Origin: Mesorhizobium sp. CAU 1732
GTDB taxonomy: Bacteria > Pseudomonadota > Alphaproteobacteria > Rhizobiales > Rhizobiaceae
Length of the DNA: 64,000 nucleotides
Assembly: GCF_039888675.1 (NCBI RefSeq)
Contig: NZ_JBDQQR010000001.1
Span: 2,356,001-2,420,000 of the forward strand
Reading direction: 5' to 3'
The notes under the pieces are model-generated. The model saw only the letters and a program-made list of their open reading frames with translations, made no database searches and was not told the DNA's origin. Below, piece by piece: positions 49,894-63,928 of this stretch; position 1 is the stretch's first letter, and each line of letters opens with the position of its first letter. The position numbers were made by a program, and so were the translations under genes.

Positions 49894-51002
49894 GGTGGGT
49901 TCAAGGATGAAGTGCGACTTGCGAATGATACCAATGAGTTATCATACGCAAGGAAGATGCAATGAGACGCACCTACTCCCATATCGGCCTGGATGAACGT
50001 CGTAAGATTGCTCGCTGGCGGATGGCCGGCCTGAGCATCGAGATCATCGCAGAAAAGCTTGGACGGCATCGCTCGACGATCTTTCGCGAGATCAAGCGCA
50101 ATATGTTCGTCGACAAGGTCGTTCCAGATCTCAACGGCTACTATTGCGTGACGGCCCACGGCATGGCTTGCGAGCGCCGCGCCAAGCTGCGGAAGCTGGC
50201 GCGTTTCTCACACGTCCGGCAGTCCGTTATCGACCGGATCATACATGGATGGTCGCCACAGCAGATCGCCGGTCGCATGCGCCTGGAGCGTCATCCGATC
50301 TCGGTCAGCCACGAGACGATCTACAAGTTTGCGTATTCGGCCGATGGCCAGGCCATCAAGCTGTGGCGGCATCTGCCGGAGCATCGAGCCAGGCGCCGCC
50401 CCCGGCATGCAAGGCGCAGACATGGCCGGCGCTTCAGCCCGGAACTGAACATCCTGCGCCGCCCGGATGTCGTTGCCGACCGTAAGCAGTTCGGACACTG
50501 GGAATGCGACCTGATCCAGTTCCGCAAGAAGTTCGGCAAGGCCAACGTCACATCGCTGGTCGAACGGGTCAGTCGCTTTGCCATCTTCCTGCGCAACAAT
50601 GATCGACAGTCCCGGCCCGTGATGGATGGCGTCATACAGGCGCTACAGGCCCTACCCCACCTCGCTCGCCGTTCGATCACATTCGACCGTGGCACGGAGT
50701 TCACCGACTGGCCCTACCTTCAGGCAAGCATAGGCACCCAAACGTGGTTCTGCGACCCGCAATCTCCCTGGCAGAAAGGCACCGTCGAAAACACCAACGG
50801 CCGGGTGCGGAAATGGCTTTCGAGAGAGGTCGATCCATTATCTGTGACCGATGCCGACCTGATCGAGATCTGCAATCGGCTGAATGCGACGCCTCGCAAA
50901 TGCCTCGGCTACCGAACGCCAGCGGAGGTCTTTCGAAAGAAACTGCTCGCCCAGATGAGGCATGCCGGCTAGCTTGAACCCACCCGCAAGTCGCATCTCA
51001 GC
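49894..51002 (+). mobile_element. IS30-family insertion sequence
   Basis: A full-length IS30 transposase gene (49962-50972) is bracketed by inverted sequences. On the left GATGAAGTGCGACTTGCGAATG (49906 on) matches the complement of CACCCGCAAGTCGCATCTCAGC (50981-51002) around TGCGACTTGCG. A second 12-base inverted pair, GGTGGGTTCAAG (49894-49905) with CTTGAACCCACC (50973-50984), is perfect. The exact termini and target duplication cannot be fixed from one copy. Confidence 0.75.
49962..50972 (+). CDS. IS30-family transposase
   Basis: The 336-residue DDE transposase has the N-terminal HTH typical of IS30 (YSHIGLDERRKIARWRMAGLS and EIIAEKLGRHRSTIFREIKRN, quoted in parts). The catalytic core has GHWECDLIQF (first Asp), FDRGTEFTDWPYL (second Asp) and QKGTVENTNGRVRKWL with the Glu. 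The length matches intact IS30 enzymes. AAGGAAG precedes the ATG. No frameshift or stop is seen, so the element is probably active. Confidence 0.93.
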   Translation: MRRTYSHIGLDERRKIARWRMAGLSIEIIAEKLGRHRSTIFREIKRNMFVDKVVPDLNGYYCVTAHGMACERRAKLRKLARFSHVRQSVIDRIIHGWSPQQIAGRMRLERHPISVSHETIYKFAYSADGQAIKLWRHLPEHRARRRPRHARRRHGRRFSPELNILRRPDVVADRKQFGHWECDLIQFRKKFGKANVTSLVERVSRFAIFLRNNDRQSRPVMDGVIQALQALPHLARRSITFDRGTEFTDWPYLQASIGTQTWFCDPQSPWQKGTVENTNGRVRKWLSREVDPLSVTDADLIEICNRLNATPRKCLGYRTPAEVFRKKLLAQMRHAG

Positions 51003-53854: not shown

Positions 53855-54382
53855 ATGAGCCAGGCTGCAAGACGAGACGTGCCATATGTGGAGACCGGTG
53901 TCCCACGGCTCGACCTGTCGCGCTTCGCGCCGGCCAGCCGCCGCCGGCTCAGCGCGCCCGCATTGCGCACCTTCCTCACCATCGCCGATCTCTGGGGCCT
54001 CAACGAAGAAGAGCGCAGGCTCATTCTTGGCTACCCGTCGCGATCGACCTATCATGGCTGGGCGAAGCAGGTGCGCGAGCATCGCGAGCTGACGCTCGAC
54101 GTCGATGTCCTTACCCGGATTTCCGCCGTGCTCGGCATCCATCAGGCGCTCGGCGTGCTGTATGAAACCGAACGCGAGGCCGTCGCGTGGCTGCGCGGGC
54201 CGCATGACGGGGCGGTGTTCGGCGGGAGGCCGCCGCTGGCGTTCGTGACGAGCGGCCTGCAGGACGGTCTCATGACGGTCCGGCGCTTCCTCGATGCCGC
54301 GCGCGGCGGCATCTACATGGAGCCGAACGCGCTCGATGCCGGCTTCGAGCCCTATGACGATCGGGACATCGTCCTGCGGTGA
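53855..54382 (+). CDS. Antitoxin Xre/MbcA/ParS family
   Basis: The 175-residue antitoxin has an N-terminal helix-turn-helix region (FLTIADLWGLNEEERRLILGYPSRSTYHGW, in part) and a C-terminal DUF2384 toxin-binding domain. The latter includes VFGGRPPLAFVTSGLQDG and LMTVRRFLDAARGG. This is the antitoxin half of RES-Xre systems. It precedes the RES toxin with a GTGA overlap, the usual antitoxin-first order. A palindrome lies in its promoter. The ATG at 53855 has AAGGA about nine bases upstream. Confidence 0.92.
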   Translation: MSQAARRDVPYVETGVPRLDLSRFAPASRRRLSAPALRTFLTIADLWGLNEEERRLILGYPSRSTYHGWAKQVREHRELTLDVDVLTRISAVLGIHQALGVLYETEREAVAWLRGPHDGAVFGGRPPLAFVTSGLQDGLMTVRRFLDAARGGIYMEPNALDAGFEPYDDRDIVLR

Positions 54383-55053
54383 GCCACGCAAGGTCGCCGG
54401 CGCCGCAGCCGGCATTCCGTCTCATCCCGTCACGGTTTCCGCCGGTCGGCCTGTTCGACACGGTCGCGACGGCCAACGACCTCTACGCCGTGATGGAACT
54501 CGTCGGCTGGACGAACGATCGCCTGGTGGGCGAACGCATCGACCGGTTGCCGCGCGACGAATGGGTCTATGGCCGCCCGAATGCGAGCGTCGTCATGGCC
54601 GCCTTCCTGCACGTCGCGCCCGGCGGATCGCGGTTCAACGGGCCTGATCTGGGCGCGTGGTATGCGGCAGGCGATGTCAGGACATCGGCGGCGGAAGTCG
54701 GCCATCATCTGCGCCGTGAGGCAGTGGCGCGGCGGCTTCCGAAACTGAGCCGCGTCTACCGCTCATATGCCGCGCGCCTGCCGGGCGAGCATGTCGACAT
54801 CAGGGGCATGCAGGCCGCCCTGCCCGGCCTGTACCGGCCGGACAGCTACGAGGAAACGCAAATCTTCGGCGAAGCGATGCGGAAAGCCGGCGAACCCGGC
54901 ATCCTCTACGACAGCGTGCGGCTGCGTGGCGGAGAAAACGTGGTGGCGTTTCGTCCGTCGATGATCCTCGATGTCACCCAGAGCGACCATTTCGAGGTCA
55001 CCGTATCGGCTGCGGAGAGAACCATCGACGTACGAAAGCTGAAATCGGCCTGA
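54379..55053 (+). CDS. RES-domain toxin (NAD+ phosphorylase)
   Basis: The 224-residue RES domain protein has the conserved Arg85 (SRFNGPDLGAWYAAGD), Tyr95, Glu106 and Ser179 (ILYDSVR) that form the active site of MbcT/RES toxins, which deplete NAD+ by phosphorolysis. It begins at a GTG overlapping the antitoxin stop. Gene order, overlap and the intact key residues make it a functional RES-Xre toxin-antitoxin module. It is chromosomal and close to nrdB. Confidence 0.9.
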   Translation: MSHARSPAPQPAFRLIPSRFPPVGLFDTVATANDLYAVMELVGWTNDRLVGERIDRLPRDEWVYGRPNASVVMAAFLHVAPGGSRFNGPDLGAWYAAGDVRTSAAEVGHHLRREAVARRLPKLSRVYRSYAARLPGEHVDIRGMQAALPGLYRPDSYEETQIFGEAMRKAGEPGILYDSVRLRGGENVVAFRPSMILDVTQSDHFEVTVSAAERTIDVRKLKSA

Positions 55054-55422: not shown

Positions 55423-56538
55423 TCAATCCCAGGAAAGCGCACCGCCGTTCTGATATTCGATGACGCGGGTCTCGAAAAAGTTCTTTTCCTTCTTCAGATC
55501 CATCGCCTCCGACATCCACGGGAACGGGTTTTCCGTTTCCTTGAACACCGGTGCCAGGCCCAGCTGCGCGCAGCGGCGGTTGGCGATGAAGTGCATGTAC
55601 TGCTCGCACAAAGCCGCATTCAGCCCGAGGAACCCGCGCGGCATCGTATCGCGCCCGTAGGACGCTTCCAGTTCGGCAGCATTGGCGATCATGCCGCGCA
55701 CCTCGTCCTGGAATTCCTTCGTCCAGAGATGCGGGTTTTCCAGCTTGATCTGGTTGATCACGTCGATGCCGAAGTTCAGATGGATCGACTCGTCGCGCAG
55801 GATGTACTGGTACTGCTCGGCAATGCCGACCATCTTGTTGCGGCGGCCCAGCGACAGGATCTGCGCGAAGCCGGTGTAGAACCACATGCCCTCGAAGATC
55901 ACGTAGAACGCCACCAGATCGCGCAGGAAGGCGGTGTCGGTCTCCGGCGTGCCGGTCTTGAAATCGGGATTGTCGAGGTTCTGCGTATGCTTGAGCGCCC
56001 ACGCCGCCTTGTCGGTGATCGACGGCACCTCGCGATACATGTTGAACAGCTCGCCCTCGTCGAGGCTCAGGCTTTCAACGATGTATTGGAAGGTGTGCGT
56101 GTGGATCGCCTCCTCGAACGCCTGCCGCAGCAGATACTGGCGGCATTCGGGATTGGTCAGGTGACGGTAGATCGCGAGCACGATGTTGTTCGCCACCAGC
56201 GATTCCGACGCGGCAAAAAAGCCGAGATTGCGCTTGATCATGTGGCGCTCGTCGTCCGTCAGCCCGTCCTTCGACTTCCACAGCGCGATGTCGGCCTGCA
56301 TGGAAACCTCGGTCGGCATCCAGTGGTTGTTGCAGCCGGACAGGTATTTTTCCCACGCCCAGCGATATTTCAGCGGCAGTAGCTGGTTCACGTCGGCGCG
56401 GGCGTTGATCATGCGCTTGTCGTCCACCGACACCCGCGCCCCGCCCCGCTCGATCTCGCCGAGGCCGGTGGCATCGGTTTCGACATTCGCCGGGGTGAGA
56501 TTGGTCGGCATGGATTTCGGTTCTGACCAGTCGAGCAT
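55423..56538 (-). CDS. nrdB: Ribonucleotide reductase small subunit, class Ic-type NrdB
   Basis: The 371-residue ferritin-like radical subunit has predicted metal ligands Glu112, Glu143, His146, Glu216, Glu250 and His253. In the segment [12 protein letters not shown] the position of the radical Tyr is Phe150, and the first ligand is Glu rather than Asp. Identity and spacing (31, 3, 73, 34, 3; Phe seven after the second Glu) match the Mn/Fe class Ic enzyme of Chlamydia. It therefore probably uses a Mn(IV)/Fe(III) cofactor instead of a tyrosyl radical. AAGGAGAA precedes the ATG. A composite repeat separates it from nrdA upstream; the two share a transcript. Confidence 0.93.
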
Positions 56539-56729: not shown

Positions 56730-59621
<2,892 letters not shown>

Positions 59622-59739
59622 TCTTATCCCCGTGGCGTTGTGGGCGGGGATGGCAAAGGATGCGGGACGGCGCGAAGCGGCACAGGCCGCCTTCATGCCA
59701 GCGCACCACCAGGACACCCCGCCCGAGGTTCGATCAAGC

Positions 59740-59902
59740 TGTCAGGGCAGGTCTCCTGGCTCGCAGGTCATCGCTTTCGTCGGCCTTCCCGGTGCCCGAG
59801 GCACCAGTGGCATAACTCGACGCAAGCTCTCTGCTTACAGTTGCGGGGGCAGCTCCGGCTTTCCCTGAAACGGGGCACCGGCTTCCCTCTTAGCTCCCGA
59901 AC
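59740..59902 (-). promoter_or_regulatory. Cobalamin riboswitch controlling nrdAB
   Basis: On the minus strand the leader contains AAGAGGGAAGCCGGTGCC, GCTGCCCCCGCAACTGTAAG, the GCCACTGG segment and the B12 box GAGCCAGGAGACCTGCCC. These are the conserved cobalamin aptamer elements in order. It lies 118 bases before nrdA. Cobalamin would repress this B12-independent reductase. Confidence 0.93.
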
Positions 59903-59926
59903 CAACGTGATTCGGAAGAACCATGA

Positions 59927-59973
59927 CGACTACATCTAGCGGCTATCGCGGTGCGGCTGTCAATTTGTTGCGG
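59927..59973 (-). promoter_or_regulatory. Two NrdR-box-like sites over the nrdA promoter
   Basis: CGACTACATCTAGCGG (59927-59942) and TGTCAATTTGTTGCGG (59958-59973) resemble the 16-bp NrdR consensus (A-C-A-C-x6-G-T-G-T type) and are centred 31 bp apart, the spacing required by NrdR. A TTGACA -35 on the minus strand (complement of 59958-59963) overlaps the second box and the -10 region overlaps the first. Confidence 0.65.
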
Positions 59974-60479: not shown

Positions 60480-60616
60480 AAGCGCTGGTTGAACGCGGGT
60501 CGCCGCAGACCCATTTCAGCGTCGCACGGGGTCTTTCCTCCCATTGGCCCCGTGCGTTCCCCTCTGGAGGTTTTGACCTTCACACCTCGGCCAGGCATTC
60601 GTGTCTGGCCTTTTTC
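60480..60616 (+). ncRNA. Candidate small RNA with anti-Shine-Dalgarno loop and terminator
   Basis: Three hairpins follow in order: CGCACGGGG/CCCCGTGCG (60523-60531 with 60548-60556) with a 16-base loop containing CTTTCCTCCC; GAGGT/ACCTC (60567-60571 with 60584-60588); and a GGCCAG/CTGGCC terminator. There is no coding frame. The C/U-rich loop can pair with Shine-Dalgarno sequences, as in alphaproteobacterial trans-acting RNAs of the alpha-r14 (NfeR1) type. The 5' end is uncertain. Confidence 0.55.
60589..60616 (+). terminator. Rho-independent terminator
   Basis: GGCCAG (60589-60594) pairs with CTGGCC (60605-60610), followed by TTTTTC. It ends the candidate small RNA and could also serve read-through from the ElaB-like gene. 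Confidence 0.85.
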
Positions 60617-60730
60617 TTTGGGCCATTGTCGCGTCTGCTCGGCGCCGCAAGACACCCCTCGATTCACATCGTGACATAGTCGCCACGCCTCTCTCCGGAC
60701 GTATCGCAAGACGGGGGACGACGTCGAAAA

Positions 60731-60746
60731 TTAACCATTTGTTAAC
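60731..60746. promoter_or_regulatory. CtrA-binding site upstream of minC
   Basis: TTAA-CCATTTG-TTAAC is an exact match to the TTAA-N7-TTAAC consensus of the cell-cycle regulator CtrA, 41 bases before the minC start. A further TTAAC half-site lies at 60778-60782. Confidence 0.75.
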
Positions 60747-60786
60747 CATTCGACCGATATCCCTCGGCTACGAAAAATTAACAAAG

Positions 60787-61527
60787 ATGTCCGAAGTGTT
60801 AACTGAAGCCCGGCCGATCCGCCTCAAGGGTCGCTCATTCCTCGCGCTCGTCCTGACGCCAGAACTGCCCTTCGACGGCTGGCTGGCGCGCCTCGACGAT
60901 CTGGCGGCCCGTTCCGCTGGGTTTTTCCTGCGCAGGCCCATCGTTCTGGATGTCGACGGGCTCGACATCGACCGGGCGCAACTGCGCGAGCTGGTCGAAC
61001 AGCTCGGCACCCGCAACGTGCGAATCATGGGCATCGAAGGCGCGCGGGCCTCGCTGCTCGACGGCGGCCTGCCGCCTGCCATGACCGACGGCCGTCCGGC
61101 CTCCGATTTCGAGGCGCCCGTCGCCGACGATGGCGATGCGGCAGAGGCCGAAACCGATGAAGCCGCACCCGCCTACACCGCGCAGGTCGGCAAGGCCGTG
61201 CCGTCGCTGGTCGTCACCCAGCCGGTGCGCTCCGGCCAGTCGCTGATATTCCCGGAAGGCGACGTCACGATCGTCGGGTCGGTCGCCTCGGGCGCGGAAG
61301 TCGTCGCCGGCGGCTCGATCCACGTCTACGGAACGCTGCGGGGACGCGCGCTGGCGGGCACGATGGGTGACGCCGCGGCACGCATCTTCTGCCGCAAGCT
61401 CGAGGCCGAGCTGATCGCGATCGACGGCTTCTACAAGACGGCCGAGGACATGGAGCCAGGATTGCGCGGCCAGGCCGTCCAGATCTGGCTCGAAGGCGAG
61501 ACGATTTTGGCGGGAACACTGGGCTGA
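60787..61527 (+). CDS. minC: Septum site-determining protein MinC
   Basis: The 246-residue division inhibitor has an N-terminal domain (MSEVLTEARPIRLKGRSFLA, LTPELPFDGWLARLDDLA) and a C-terminal beta-helix domain. The latter has TQPVRSGQSLIFPEGDVTIV, GSVASGAEVVAGGSIHVYGTLRGRALAG (parts) and the IDGFY loop. It blocks FtsZ assembly away from midcell when bound to MinD. The ATG at 60787 starts the conserved N-terminus; the longer frame to 60601 crosses the promoter and terminator. It precedes minD by 34 bases and has a CtrA-type site upstream. Confidence 0.94.
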   Translation: MSEVLTEARPIRLKGRSFLALVLTPELPFDGWLARLDDLAARSAGFFLRRPIVLDVDGLDIDRAQLRELVEQLGTRNVRIMGIEGARASLLDGGLPPAMTDGRPASDFEAPVADDGDAAEAETDEAAPAYTAQVGKAVPSLVVTQPVRSGQSLIFPEGDVTIVGSVASGAEVVAGGSIHVYGTLRGRALAGTMGDAAARIFCRKLEAELIAIDGFYKTAEDMEPGLRGQAVQIWLEGETILAGTLG

Positions 61528-61561
61528 GCCGATGGCGGAACAAGAACAACAGGAGAGGTCT

Positions 61562-62377
61562 ATGGGCAAGGTAATCGTGGTCACATCGGGCAAGGGCGGC
61601 GTCGGCAAGACGACGTCGGCCGCCGCACTGGGCGCAGCCCTTGCGCAGACCGGCGACAAGGTCGCGGTCGTGGATTTCGACGTCGGACTGCGCAATCTCG
61701 ACCTCGTGATGGGCGCCGAGCGGCGCGTCGTCTACGATCTGGTCAACGTCATCCAGGGCGAAGCCAAGCTGACGCAGGCGCTGATCCGCGACAAGCGCGT
61801 GGAAACGCTGTTCCTGCTGCCGGCCTCGCAGACCCGCGACAAGGACAACCTCACGCCGGAGGGCGTCGAGAAGGTCATCGCCGCGCTCAAGAAGGCCTTC
61901 GACTGGGTGATCTGCGACAGCCCCGCCGGCATCGAGCGCGGCGCGACCCTGGCCATGCGCCATGCCGACATCGCCATCGTGGTGACCAACCCTGAAGTCT
62001 CGTCGGTGCGCGATTCGGACCGCATCATCGGCCTGCTCGATTCCAAGACGCTCAAGGCCGAGAATGGCGAGCAGATCGAAAAGCACCTGTTGCTGACCCG
62101 CTACGATCCGGCCCGCGCCGAGCGCGGCGACATGCTGAAGGTCGACGACGTGCTCGAAATCCTGTCGATCCCGCTGCTCGGCATCATCCCCGAGAGCATG
62201 GACGTGCTGCGCGCATCGAATGTCGGCTCGCCCGTGACGCTGGCCGATGGAAACAGCGCGCCGGCAAAGGCTTATTTCGACGCGGTGCGGCGTTTGAAGG
62301 GCGAAACCGTTCCGATCAGCATTCCGGGCGAAAAGCGCGGCTTCTTCGGCAAGATCTTCGGGAGGAAAGCGGCATGA
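61562..62377 (+). CDS. minD: Septum site-determining protein MinD
   Basis: The 271-residue ATPase has the deviant Walker A KGGVGKTT near residue 11, [24 protein letters not shown] and a C-terminal amphipathic membrane helix ([12 protein letters not shown]). MinD binds the membrane in its ATP form and recruits MinC and MinE. The ATG at 61562 has AGGAGAGG six bases upstream; an in-frame ATG at 61532 would add ten residues with no ribosome site. It overlaps minE by four bases. Confidence 0.96.
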
Positions 62378-62643
62378 ACCTGTTCGGTTTCTTTTCGCGT
62401 CCCCAGTCGTCGGCGCCTGCCGCGCGGGAGCGCCTGCAGGTCCTGCTCGCGCATGAACGTGCGTCGGTCGGCGATTCGGACCTCGTCACCAAGCTTCGCG
62501 ACGAAATCCTCAAGGTCATCGCGAAGCACATGAAAATCGACGACGAAAAGGTCAGCGTGAAGATGGAACGCGGCGACAAGGTCTCGACGCTGGCCGTTGA
62601 TGTCGAAATCCCGTTCAACGCCGGCAAGAAGAAGGCGGCCTGA
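62374..62643 (+). CDS. minE: Cell division topological specificity factor MinE
   Basis: The 89-residue protein starts MNLFGFFSR, with the anti-MinCD segment [11 protein letters not shown] (near residue 22) and a C-terminal topological domain ([21 protein letters not shown]). The ATG overlaps the minD stop. It stimulates MinD ATPase and sets up the pole-to-pole pattern that keeps the division site central. Confidence 0.95.
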
Positions 62644-62899: not shown

Positions 62900-63928
62900 T
62901 CAGATCGCCGAGCGATCCCGCCAGCGCGTGAGCGATGCCGCGAGCCGGTCGAAGGCCGCGTCGTCGCCGGGAAGGCCGAACCGCAGCGCATCGTCCATCG
63001 CGTCGAAATTCCGCACCAGAATGCCGTTGCGCCCGAGCTGATCGTAGATCGACGGCGCGTGCGGTGTCCTGACGAAGCGGTAGAGGCTGGTCCCGCCCGC
63101 AACCGTCAATCCGGACTGCAGAAGCAGCGCATCGAGCCGTGAGGCGTCGTGCGCGAGGCGCTGGCGCATCCGGGCCTGCCAATCCATATCCGCAAGCGCC
63201 ATGCGGCCATAGGCGAGCGCCGGCCCTGCGACCGCCCATGGCCCGAGACGGGACCGCAGCTTGGACGCGACCGGCTCGGCGGCGAGCGCGAAGCCCAGCC
63301 GCACGCCTGCAAGGCCGAAGAACTTGCCGAAGGAGCGCAGCACGACGAGGCCTCCCTGCCCCACATTTCCGGCCACGCTCCGGTCGCGCGGGCCGACTTC
63401 CATGAACGCCTCGTCCACGACGAGCAGCCCGCCCTTGCGGTGCAGATGGCGCGCGAGGTCCAGAAGCATGTCGCGCTCGATGACCCGCCCGTCGGGATTG
63501 TTCGGATTGACCACGATCGCGAGATCGGCGTCGAAGAGACGCGCGACGTCGGTGACCTCGGAAACGCCGTGCCCGACAAGACGCGCCGCCCGTGCGTGCT
63601 CCGCATAGGTGGGCGACAGCACGGCCGCCCTGCCCTGCCCGGCCAGTTCCATCACCAGCGGCAGCAGGATCTGCGTGCCTGGCGCGGCGACCACCATCCG
63701 GGGCGACGGCGCGCCGTAACACGCAGCAGCGATCGTGTTCAGCTCCGCGACGTCCGCCGCCTCCGGCAGTCTCGTGAAGGCATCGGCCGGCAGGTCCGTG
63801 AGCGGATAGGCATGCGGATTGATGCCGGTCGACAGATCGAGCCACGGCGTCGGCGCATCCGGGAACAGTGCCGCCGCCGGCGCGAGACTGCCGCCGTGAT
63901 CGGAGATGTCGTCAATATGCTCGTCCAT
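62900..63928 (-). CDS. cobD: Threonine-phosphate decarboxylase CobD/CobC-like (PLP enzyme)
   Basis: The 342-residue fold-type I PLP enzyme makes aminopropanol phosphate for the lower-ligand arm of cobalamin. It has LDLSTGINPHAYP (near residue 30), VVNPNNPDGRVI (near 140), DEAFMEVGP and the PLP Lys202 in LRSFGKFFGLAGVRLG. The STGINP motif distinguishes it from histidinol-phosphate aminotransferase. No other cobalamin synthesis gene is in the window; upstream genes lie beyond the right edge. Confidence 0.92.
   Translation of the reverse strand: MDEHIDDISDHGGSLAPAAALFPDAPTPWLDLSTGINPHAYPLTDLPADAFTRLPEAADVAELNTIAAACYGAPSPRMVVAAPGTQILLPLVMELAGQGRAAVLSPTYAEHARAARLVGHGVSEVTDVARLFDADLAIVVNPNNPDGRVIERDMLLDLARHLHRKGGLLVVDEAFMEVGPRDRSVAGNVGQGGLVVLRSFGKFFGLAGVRLGFALAAEPVASKLRSRLGPWAVAGPALAYGRMALADMDWQARMRQRLAHDASRLDALLLQSGLTVAGGTSLYRFVRTPHAPSIYDQLGRNGILVRNFDAMDDALRFGLPGDDAAFDRLAASLTRWRDRSAI

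Follow-up and report, generated by a model that had tools for sequence, protein, structure and literature searches.

The locus analysed here raises the question of which oxidant starts turnover in a class I ribonucleotide reductase (RNR) whose small subunit has no tyrosine at the radical position, and what such an enzyme would do in a bacterium that also encodes the B12-dependent class II enzyme NrdJ. The locus lies in the window, a stretch of 64,000 nucleotides from Mesorhizobium sp. CAU 1732. The reading favoured here, with a probability of roughly four in five, is that NrdA and a class Ic small subunit (R2c) form an O2-dependent RNR that acts as a B12-free backup for NrdJ.

The nrdAB Operon and Its Surroundings

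The nrdB gene (55423..56538, (-) strand) features an intact, stop-free ORF of 371 residues and was identified as a class Ic-type R2 from its translation and from profile and alignment matches. A PF00268 search of the genome (5.4 Mb, listed completeness 99.9%) gave NrdB alone, and a second R2 gene was rejected on that ground. The nrdA gene (56730..59717, (-) strand), identified from its ORF and domain matches, encodes an R1 with ATP-cone, all-alpha and barrel domains; in-frame ATGs at 59696, 59621 and 59570 leave its start uncertain. nrdB sits downstream of nrdA on the same strand. NrdA retains the catalytic and radical-path residues C350, N562, C564, E566, C579, Y880, Y881, C937 and C940, which we take to be the counterparts of the functional residues of the E. 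coli protein.

Several other features surround the operon. Downstream of nrdB, an Xre-type antitoxin gene (MbcA/ParS C-terminal domain) and a RES-domain gene at 53855-55053 (+) are likely a toxin-antitoxin pair, and an IS30-family transposase (259 bits) lies at 49962-50972 (+); both the pair and the IS30 element were rejected as operon parts, having no evident role. On the other side, minC, a minD-like ATPase gene and minE follow consecutively at 60601-62643 (+), and a match to the alphaproteobacterial sRNA ar15 (60524-60615 (+), 56 bits) overlaps the start of the long ORF containing minC.

Active-Site Residues of NrdB

Class Ic is recognised here by a residue other than Tyr at the radical position, by Glu in place of Asp at metal site 1 with the other five ligands kept, and by an R1 partner with radical-transfer residues in both subunits. 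The translation of NrdB contains E112, E143, H146, F150, E216, E250 and H253, as well as W73 and Y245. A phmmer alignment places the six ligands and F150 at positions 89, 120, 123, 127, 193, 227 and 230 of the Chlamydia R2 chain 1syy, numbered through two one-residue gaps that both lie ahead of E112, and the alignment is gap-free from the first ligand to the last. The radical-Tyr column is fixed because PDB entry 2ani is titled as the F127Y mutant of Chlamydia R2. The initial annotation had placed Phe150 at the radical-Tyr position and Glu112 where class Ia has Asp, and both assignments hold in the alignment, with Chlamydia Phe127 and Glu89 as the respective partners. It had also described the ligand spacing as identical to that of Chlamydia R2, which is correct, with 31, 3, 70, 34 and 3 residues in both proteins; its third value, 73, corresponds to counting from E143/E120. 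The five remaining ligands are kept, and the radical-transfer residues are present in the adjacent NrdA (Y880, Y881, C564) and in NrdB (W73, Y245, Y362), where the C-terminal Tyr362 stands in an invariant alignment column.

The residue pair at positions 112 and 150 comes in two states, Glu/Phe (E/F) and Asp/Tyr (D/Y). Among 531 aligned R2s, a set biased by its origin in three protein searches with E/F queries as seeds and the best 120 matches of each, 460 are E/F, 70 are D/Y, one has a gap at 112 with Phe, and none is mixed; Glu occupies position 112 in 0 of the 70 with Tyr in the radical column. The 200 distinct R2 stretches recovered from DNA loci, which take in draws across the order and the phylum, divide into 108 E/F and 92 D/Y, again with no mixed pair. 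Two database proteins of 531 and 548 residues (P0056 and P0080) combine an R1 barrel domain and R2 in a single chain, which may reflect genuine fusion or faulty assembly.

Class and Predicted Metal Content

The closest PDB entry by sequence is 6y2n (689 bits), followed by the Chlamydia chains at 445-447 bits and then by a next entry at 150 bits. A fold search with an AlphaFold model of NrdB (37 rows, mean pLDDT 75.7, with residues 1-26, 28-61 and 347-371 below 50) also ranked 6y2n at the top, with 13 Chlamydia NrdB chains next, at large rmsd values of 9.8-16.2 Å, and therefore adds little beyond the fold. Structures of class Id type rank well under the Chlamydia chains in this search (5olk at 23, 6sf5 at 27 and 8dq3 at 38), on which ground a class Id reading was rejected, and a class Ia reading was rejected for the absence of Tyr from the radical column. 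Class Ic is the best reading of NrdB and is well supported by sequence, with a Mn/Fe centre predicted.

A Mn(IV)/Fe(III) cofactor in NrdB is suggested by analogy with the Chlamydia enzyme, for which section 6 of PMC8463856 describes Mn at site 1 as the oxidant. According to the same section, H2O2 can activate this enzyme as well. The initial annotation had attributed resistance to nitric oxide and peroxide to this type of cofactor, a claim that finds no support in PMC8463856, given the activation by H2O2 and a main text in which the term "nitric oxide" does not occur. It is unlikely that the site holds Fe/Fe or Mn/Mn in vivo and uses another oxidant, as a class Id-like di-Mn form or an Fe-only form of low activity would. 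Phe150 excludes only Tyr, the metal is unreadable from sequence, and mismetallation of the R2 scaffold is noted in the part of PMC8463856 that deals with it; against this, the site-1 Glu travels with Phe in 530 of the 530 sequences in which both columns are filled, and the class Id-type structures have low ranks. It is scarcely credible that NrdB is an R2-like ligand-binding oxidase (R2lox) rather than an RNR subunit, since, even though R2lox likewise lacks the radical Tyr and binds Mn/Fe (as the R2lox passages of PMC3824934 describe), NrdB scores 680 bits against the RNR beta equivalog NF005550 (cut-off 309) and 24 to 52 bits against five R2lox models, each score below the model's own cut-off, shares an operon with an R1 gene and keeps the C-terminal Tyr362, R2lox being expected to have neither partner nor tyrosine.

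Phylogeny of NrdB and the Origin of the E/F Pair

Two NrdB trees, of 72 and 48 rows, were built with the two trait columns removed. The 72-row tree dropped rows at least 84% identical to a kept row, rows shorter than 270 residues and one row gapped at 112, and kept just four haloarchaeal rows out of those listed as P0208-P0240; for the 48-row tree a further 13 haloarchaeal rows were removed, together with eleven that were long or distant. The check proposed in the initial annotation, a phylogeny confirming the class Ic branch, was borne out in part. At 100/99 (72 rows, bootstrap unsettled) and 100/98 (48 rows), NrdB from the window forms a group with 6y2n and five other E/F rows. Chlamydia and the haloarchaea join this branch only weakly: E/F as a whole lies to one side of a split at 80/35 (72 rows, the same unsettled bootstrap) and 59/17 (48 rows).

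In the topology tests, the groups were named after the trees had been seen, except for the family discussed in the next section, which is a predefined taxonomic group. A topology that unites the Chlamydia and haloarchaeal E/F rows with beta-type D/Y, and so splits E/F, is worse by 0.15 log units (AU p 0.48). Window-type E/F NrdB forced with beta-type D/Y is marginally rejected (p 0.0496), and forced with gamma-type D/Y it is not rejected (p 0.194). A single origin of the class Ic E/F pair is thus neither demonstrated nor rejected by these alignments, and one or two origins fit (AU p 0.48). If E/F arose twice, the Mn/Fe assignment would rest on the residue pattern only.

Earlier accounts of this group differ. 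RNRdb already calls such proteins NrdBPhe, according to its description in PMC2795772. The relevant passage of Lundin et al. 2010 (PMC3019208) places subclass Ic in Chlamydia and some haloarchaea and mentions other bacteria. Sections 15 and 19 of PMC3824934 report R2c as monophyletic, from Chlamydia and haloarchaea only, and recount that the 2010 study had found it polyphyletic, the chlamydial sequences having gammaproteobacterial, actinobacterial and alphaproteobacterial neighbours.

Distribution of the Gene

An even draw of 199 genomes across the order gave 31 with any R2 match, and 19 of the 199 carry an NrdB 82-100% identical to that of the window (E <1e-200). A class I R1 barrel match adjoins the close NrdB copy in all 19. 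A search of genome contigs confirmed at least 589 relatives of NrdB, the best 80 of which are 84-94% identical and are E/F in every case. These numbers, 19 of 199 order genomes and at least 589 relatives, weaken the initial view that finding such a gene here is noteworthy. Plasmid records at 80% identity or more number seven, in Phyllobacterium, Methylocella and Aureimonas. On a Teredinibacter purpureus plasmid (L178), nrdB precedes nrdA, the opposite of the order in the window. In Pseudomonas phage vB_PpuM-Lauda (L179) the match to NrdB is divided between the annotated small subunit and a hypothetical gene upstream of it; such two-piece matches occur in nine related phages among the matches listed, and nrdB is perhaps interrupted there.

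Different Histories of NrdA and NrdB in One Family

E/F genomes also occur outside the class of the window, in one other Pseudomonadota family (f94). In a 35-row NrdA tree, two of these genomes (G239 and G529) group with a D/Y genome (G557) of the same family at 100/100, and a topology that unites their NrdA with that of the window-type E/F genomes is rejected (177.7 log units, p 6e-71). Among 81 genomes drawn from f94, NrdB is E/F-like in 10 and D/Y-like in 45, one genome has a match split in two, and 25 have distant R2 matches only. The E/F-like copies belong to three genera (6, 3 and 1 genomes), and 10 of 10 read as E/F; 23 of the 45 D/Y-like copies were read, and all 23 are D/Y.

The two subunits disagree within this family. 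Across four pairs that cross the two types, NrdA is 77-81% identical and NrdB just 65-66%, and the E/F NrdB of two of the cross-pair genomes is 75-77% identical to that of the window. An NrdA tree with 19 f94 rows holds the family together at 100/99, and forcing its seven E/F NrdA rows into the window's branch is rejected (AU p 2e-30). For NrdB, a single f94 clade is rejected (145.9 log units, AU p 8e-5); the D/Y rows separate at 88/99, with no firm branching order among 6y2n, the f94 E/F rows and the window's branch. One f94 row (L102) is sister to 6y2n in the 72- and 48-row NrdB trees (99/87 and 99/90). On the best NrdA trees the E/F trait requires three changes; two are also possible, because the NrdA data do not reject window-type and haloarchaeal E/F as one group (p 0.459).

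Judged from these trees, nrdB alone was apparently replaced in three f94 genera and nrdA was retained, although an old duplication followed by opposite losses would look the same. The broader proposal built on replacement is somewhat better than an even bet: the Mn/Fe radical generator would be a transferable module, R2c having replaced the resident class Ia-type nrdB in f94 while nrdA was kept, so that an R1 of class Ia descent would use a metal oxidant, and across the wider set E112/F150 versus D112/Y150 would be a locked two-residue cofactor switch distributed at odds with the R1 tree. Such a small-subunit replacement is unreported in the listed open-licence titles and abstract starts on class Ic, on nrdAB under B12 riboswitches and on nrdB transfer, which does not prove it new. 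A second mismatch of subunit histories is seen at two D/Y loci (L198 and L199), where NrdA is 63-64% identical to that of the window and NrdB only 39-40%.

NrdJ was found in 0 of the 10 f94 E/F genomes searched and a cobalamin riboswitch at 0 of the 7 f94 E/F loci scanned, and therefore the class Ic enzyme in that family would not be a B12 backup.

Cobalamin Riboswitch, NrdJ and B12 Context

The leader of nrdAB contains a cobalamin riboswitch aptamer at 59729..59940 (-), 5' of nrdA, that matches the whole RF00174 model with 133 bits against a gathering threshold of 31.5. The B12 control alluded to in the initial annotation has a basis in this aptamer, the switching itself being predicted. Out of 80 related loci, 74 could be assessed, nrdA being missing from one (L015) and truncated at a contig end in five others. 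A riboswitch signature precedes nrdA in 72 of these 74, 71 by a core motif and one (L049) by Rfam, where the motif was sought in the 700 bases upstream of nrdA and is the sole basis at 65 of the 74 loci. Rfam models applied to nine of the 74 gave seven matches and two misses. At two loci (L045 and L086) the operon is present and neither the motif nor an Rfam riboswitch was found before nrdA.

All 23 E/F genomes from the class of the window that have a full-length match, the present one among them, encode NrdJ above the TIGR02504 cut-off and apart from NrdA; one genome with an nrdB fragment only (G558) is omitted from this count. In this genome NrdJ lies at C1:1989607-1992003. Among D/Y loci scanned with nrdA, a cobalamin riboswitch was found at one of 29 (L199, 71 bits), which means that B12 control also occurs outside class Ic. 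NrdJ apart from NrdA occurs in 6 of 16 D/Y genomes, one of which is the riboswitch carrier; the other five have no riboswitch beside nrdA, and NrdJ thus does not always bring the switch. Haloarchaeal E/F loci gave 0 riboswitches in three scanned.

Other genes of B12 metabolism bear on this context. The B12-synthesis gene cobD, for threonine-phosphate decarboxylase, lies 3 kb off at 62900..63928 (-) (TIGR01140, 334 bits against a cut-off of 290.55). Of the genome's other three riboswitches, one precedes a btuF-like gene adjoining metH and one a btuB-like gene, as judged by eye. The gene for the B12-free methionine synthase, metE, was found within ~5 kb of nrdAB in 10 of 25 E/F genomes searched and at full length in 14 of 25, one of these with an internal stop. 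The operon is therefore often beside a second B12-sparing gene, though not here: a search of the present genome gave no metE match, and the linkage was rejected for it. At L008 (G000:C1:772682-772880), a cobalamin riboswitch precedes a Rieske-type oxygenase-like gene, an unusual target judged by eye. Aquamicrobium zhengzhouense has two nrdB copies on two contigs (L015 and L019), and the L015 locus, where nrdA is absent, shows a weak cobalamin match (40 bits) 3' of nrdB.

In the branch of the window, the gene content and leader make the nrdAB operon look like a backup for B12 shortage, with its regulation predicted. The folding of the leader compared with shuffled sequences gives a z of only -1.66 and thus no sign of an expression platform. 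This unexceptional fold would suit an operon that is silent or run mainly by an input other than B12, such as NrdR or metals, with the riboswitch minor; that account is nonetheless quite improbable, since 72 of 74 testable relatives carry the signature ahead of nrdA and an NrdR-box consensus found no match in the window at up to three mismatches.

Proposed Mechanism and Significance

In the proposed mechanism, NrdB would assemble a Mn/Fe centre like that of the Chlamydia enzyme, and its oxidised site-1 Mn would take the place of the missing tyrosyl radical and oxidise the NrdA cysteine via the conserved radical path. With AdoCbl plentiful and NrdJ working, the leader riboswitch would turn nrdAB off, and with B12 scarce it would permit expression.

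If this is correct, free-living bacteria hold class Ic under a B12 switch, and the Mn/Fe and B12 solutions could be compared in one cell. Sister genera with shared nrdA and differing nrdB would then be a natural experiment on whether a metal-based oxidant is accepted by an R1 that descends from tyrosyl-radical enzymes, and on whether metal choice is set by one or two substitutions.

Comparison with Known Systems

The class Ic R2 of Chlamydia trachomatis (1syy, 4d8f, 4m1i) shares with NrdB the six ligands, the Phe at the radical position, the radical-path Trp and Tyr and the C-terminal Tyr. It differs in being 57% identical and in pairing with the haloarchaea in the trees, where its join to the window's branch is weak. 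The nearest solved structure, the R2 of Saccharopolyspora erythraea (6y2n), is also E/F and is 85% identical over the aligned columns, but it is actinobacterial. It comes from serial-crystallography work in which the protein is named an R2 subunit, with no cofactor given in the part of PMC7467353 that introduces it. Pseudomonas-type NrdB is also similar, the window protein being 69% identical to a P. aeruginosa plasmid copy. This type, which we take to be class Ia, differs in carrying Asp112 and Tyr150. In the Streptomyces nrdABS system, a B12 riboswitch controls a B12-independent class Ia isozyme with NrdJ as its partner, and the window resembles it in combining a riboswitch on the B12-independent isozyme with NrdJ.
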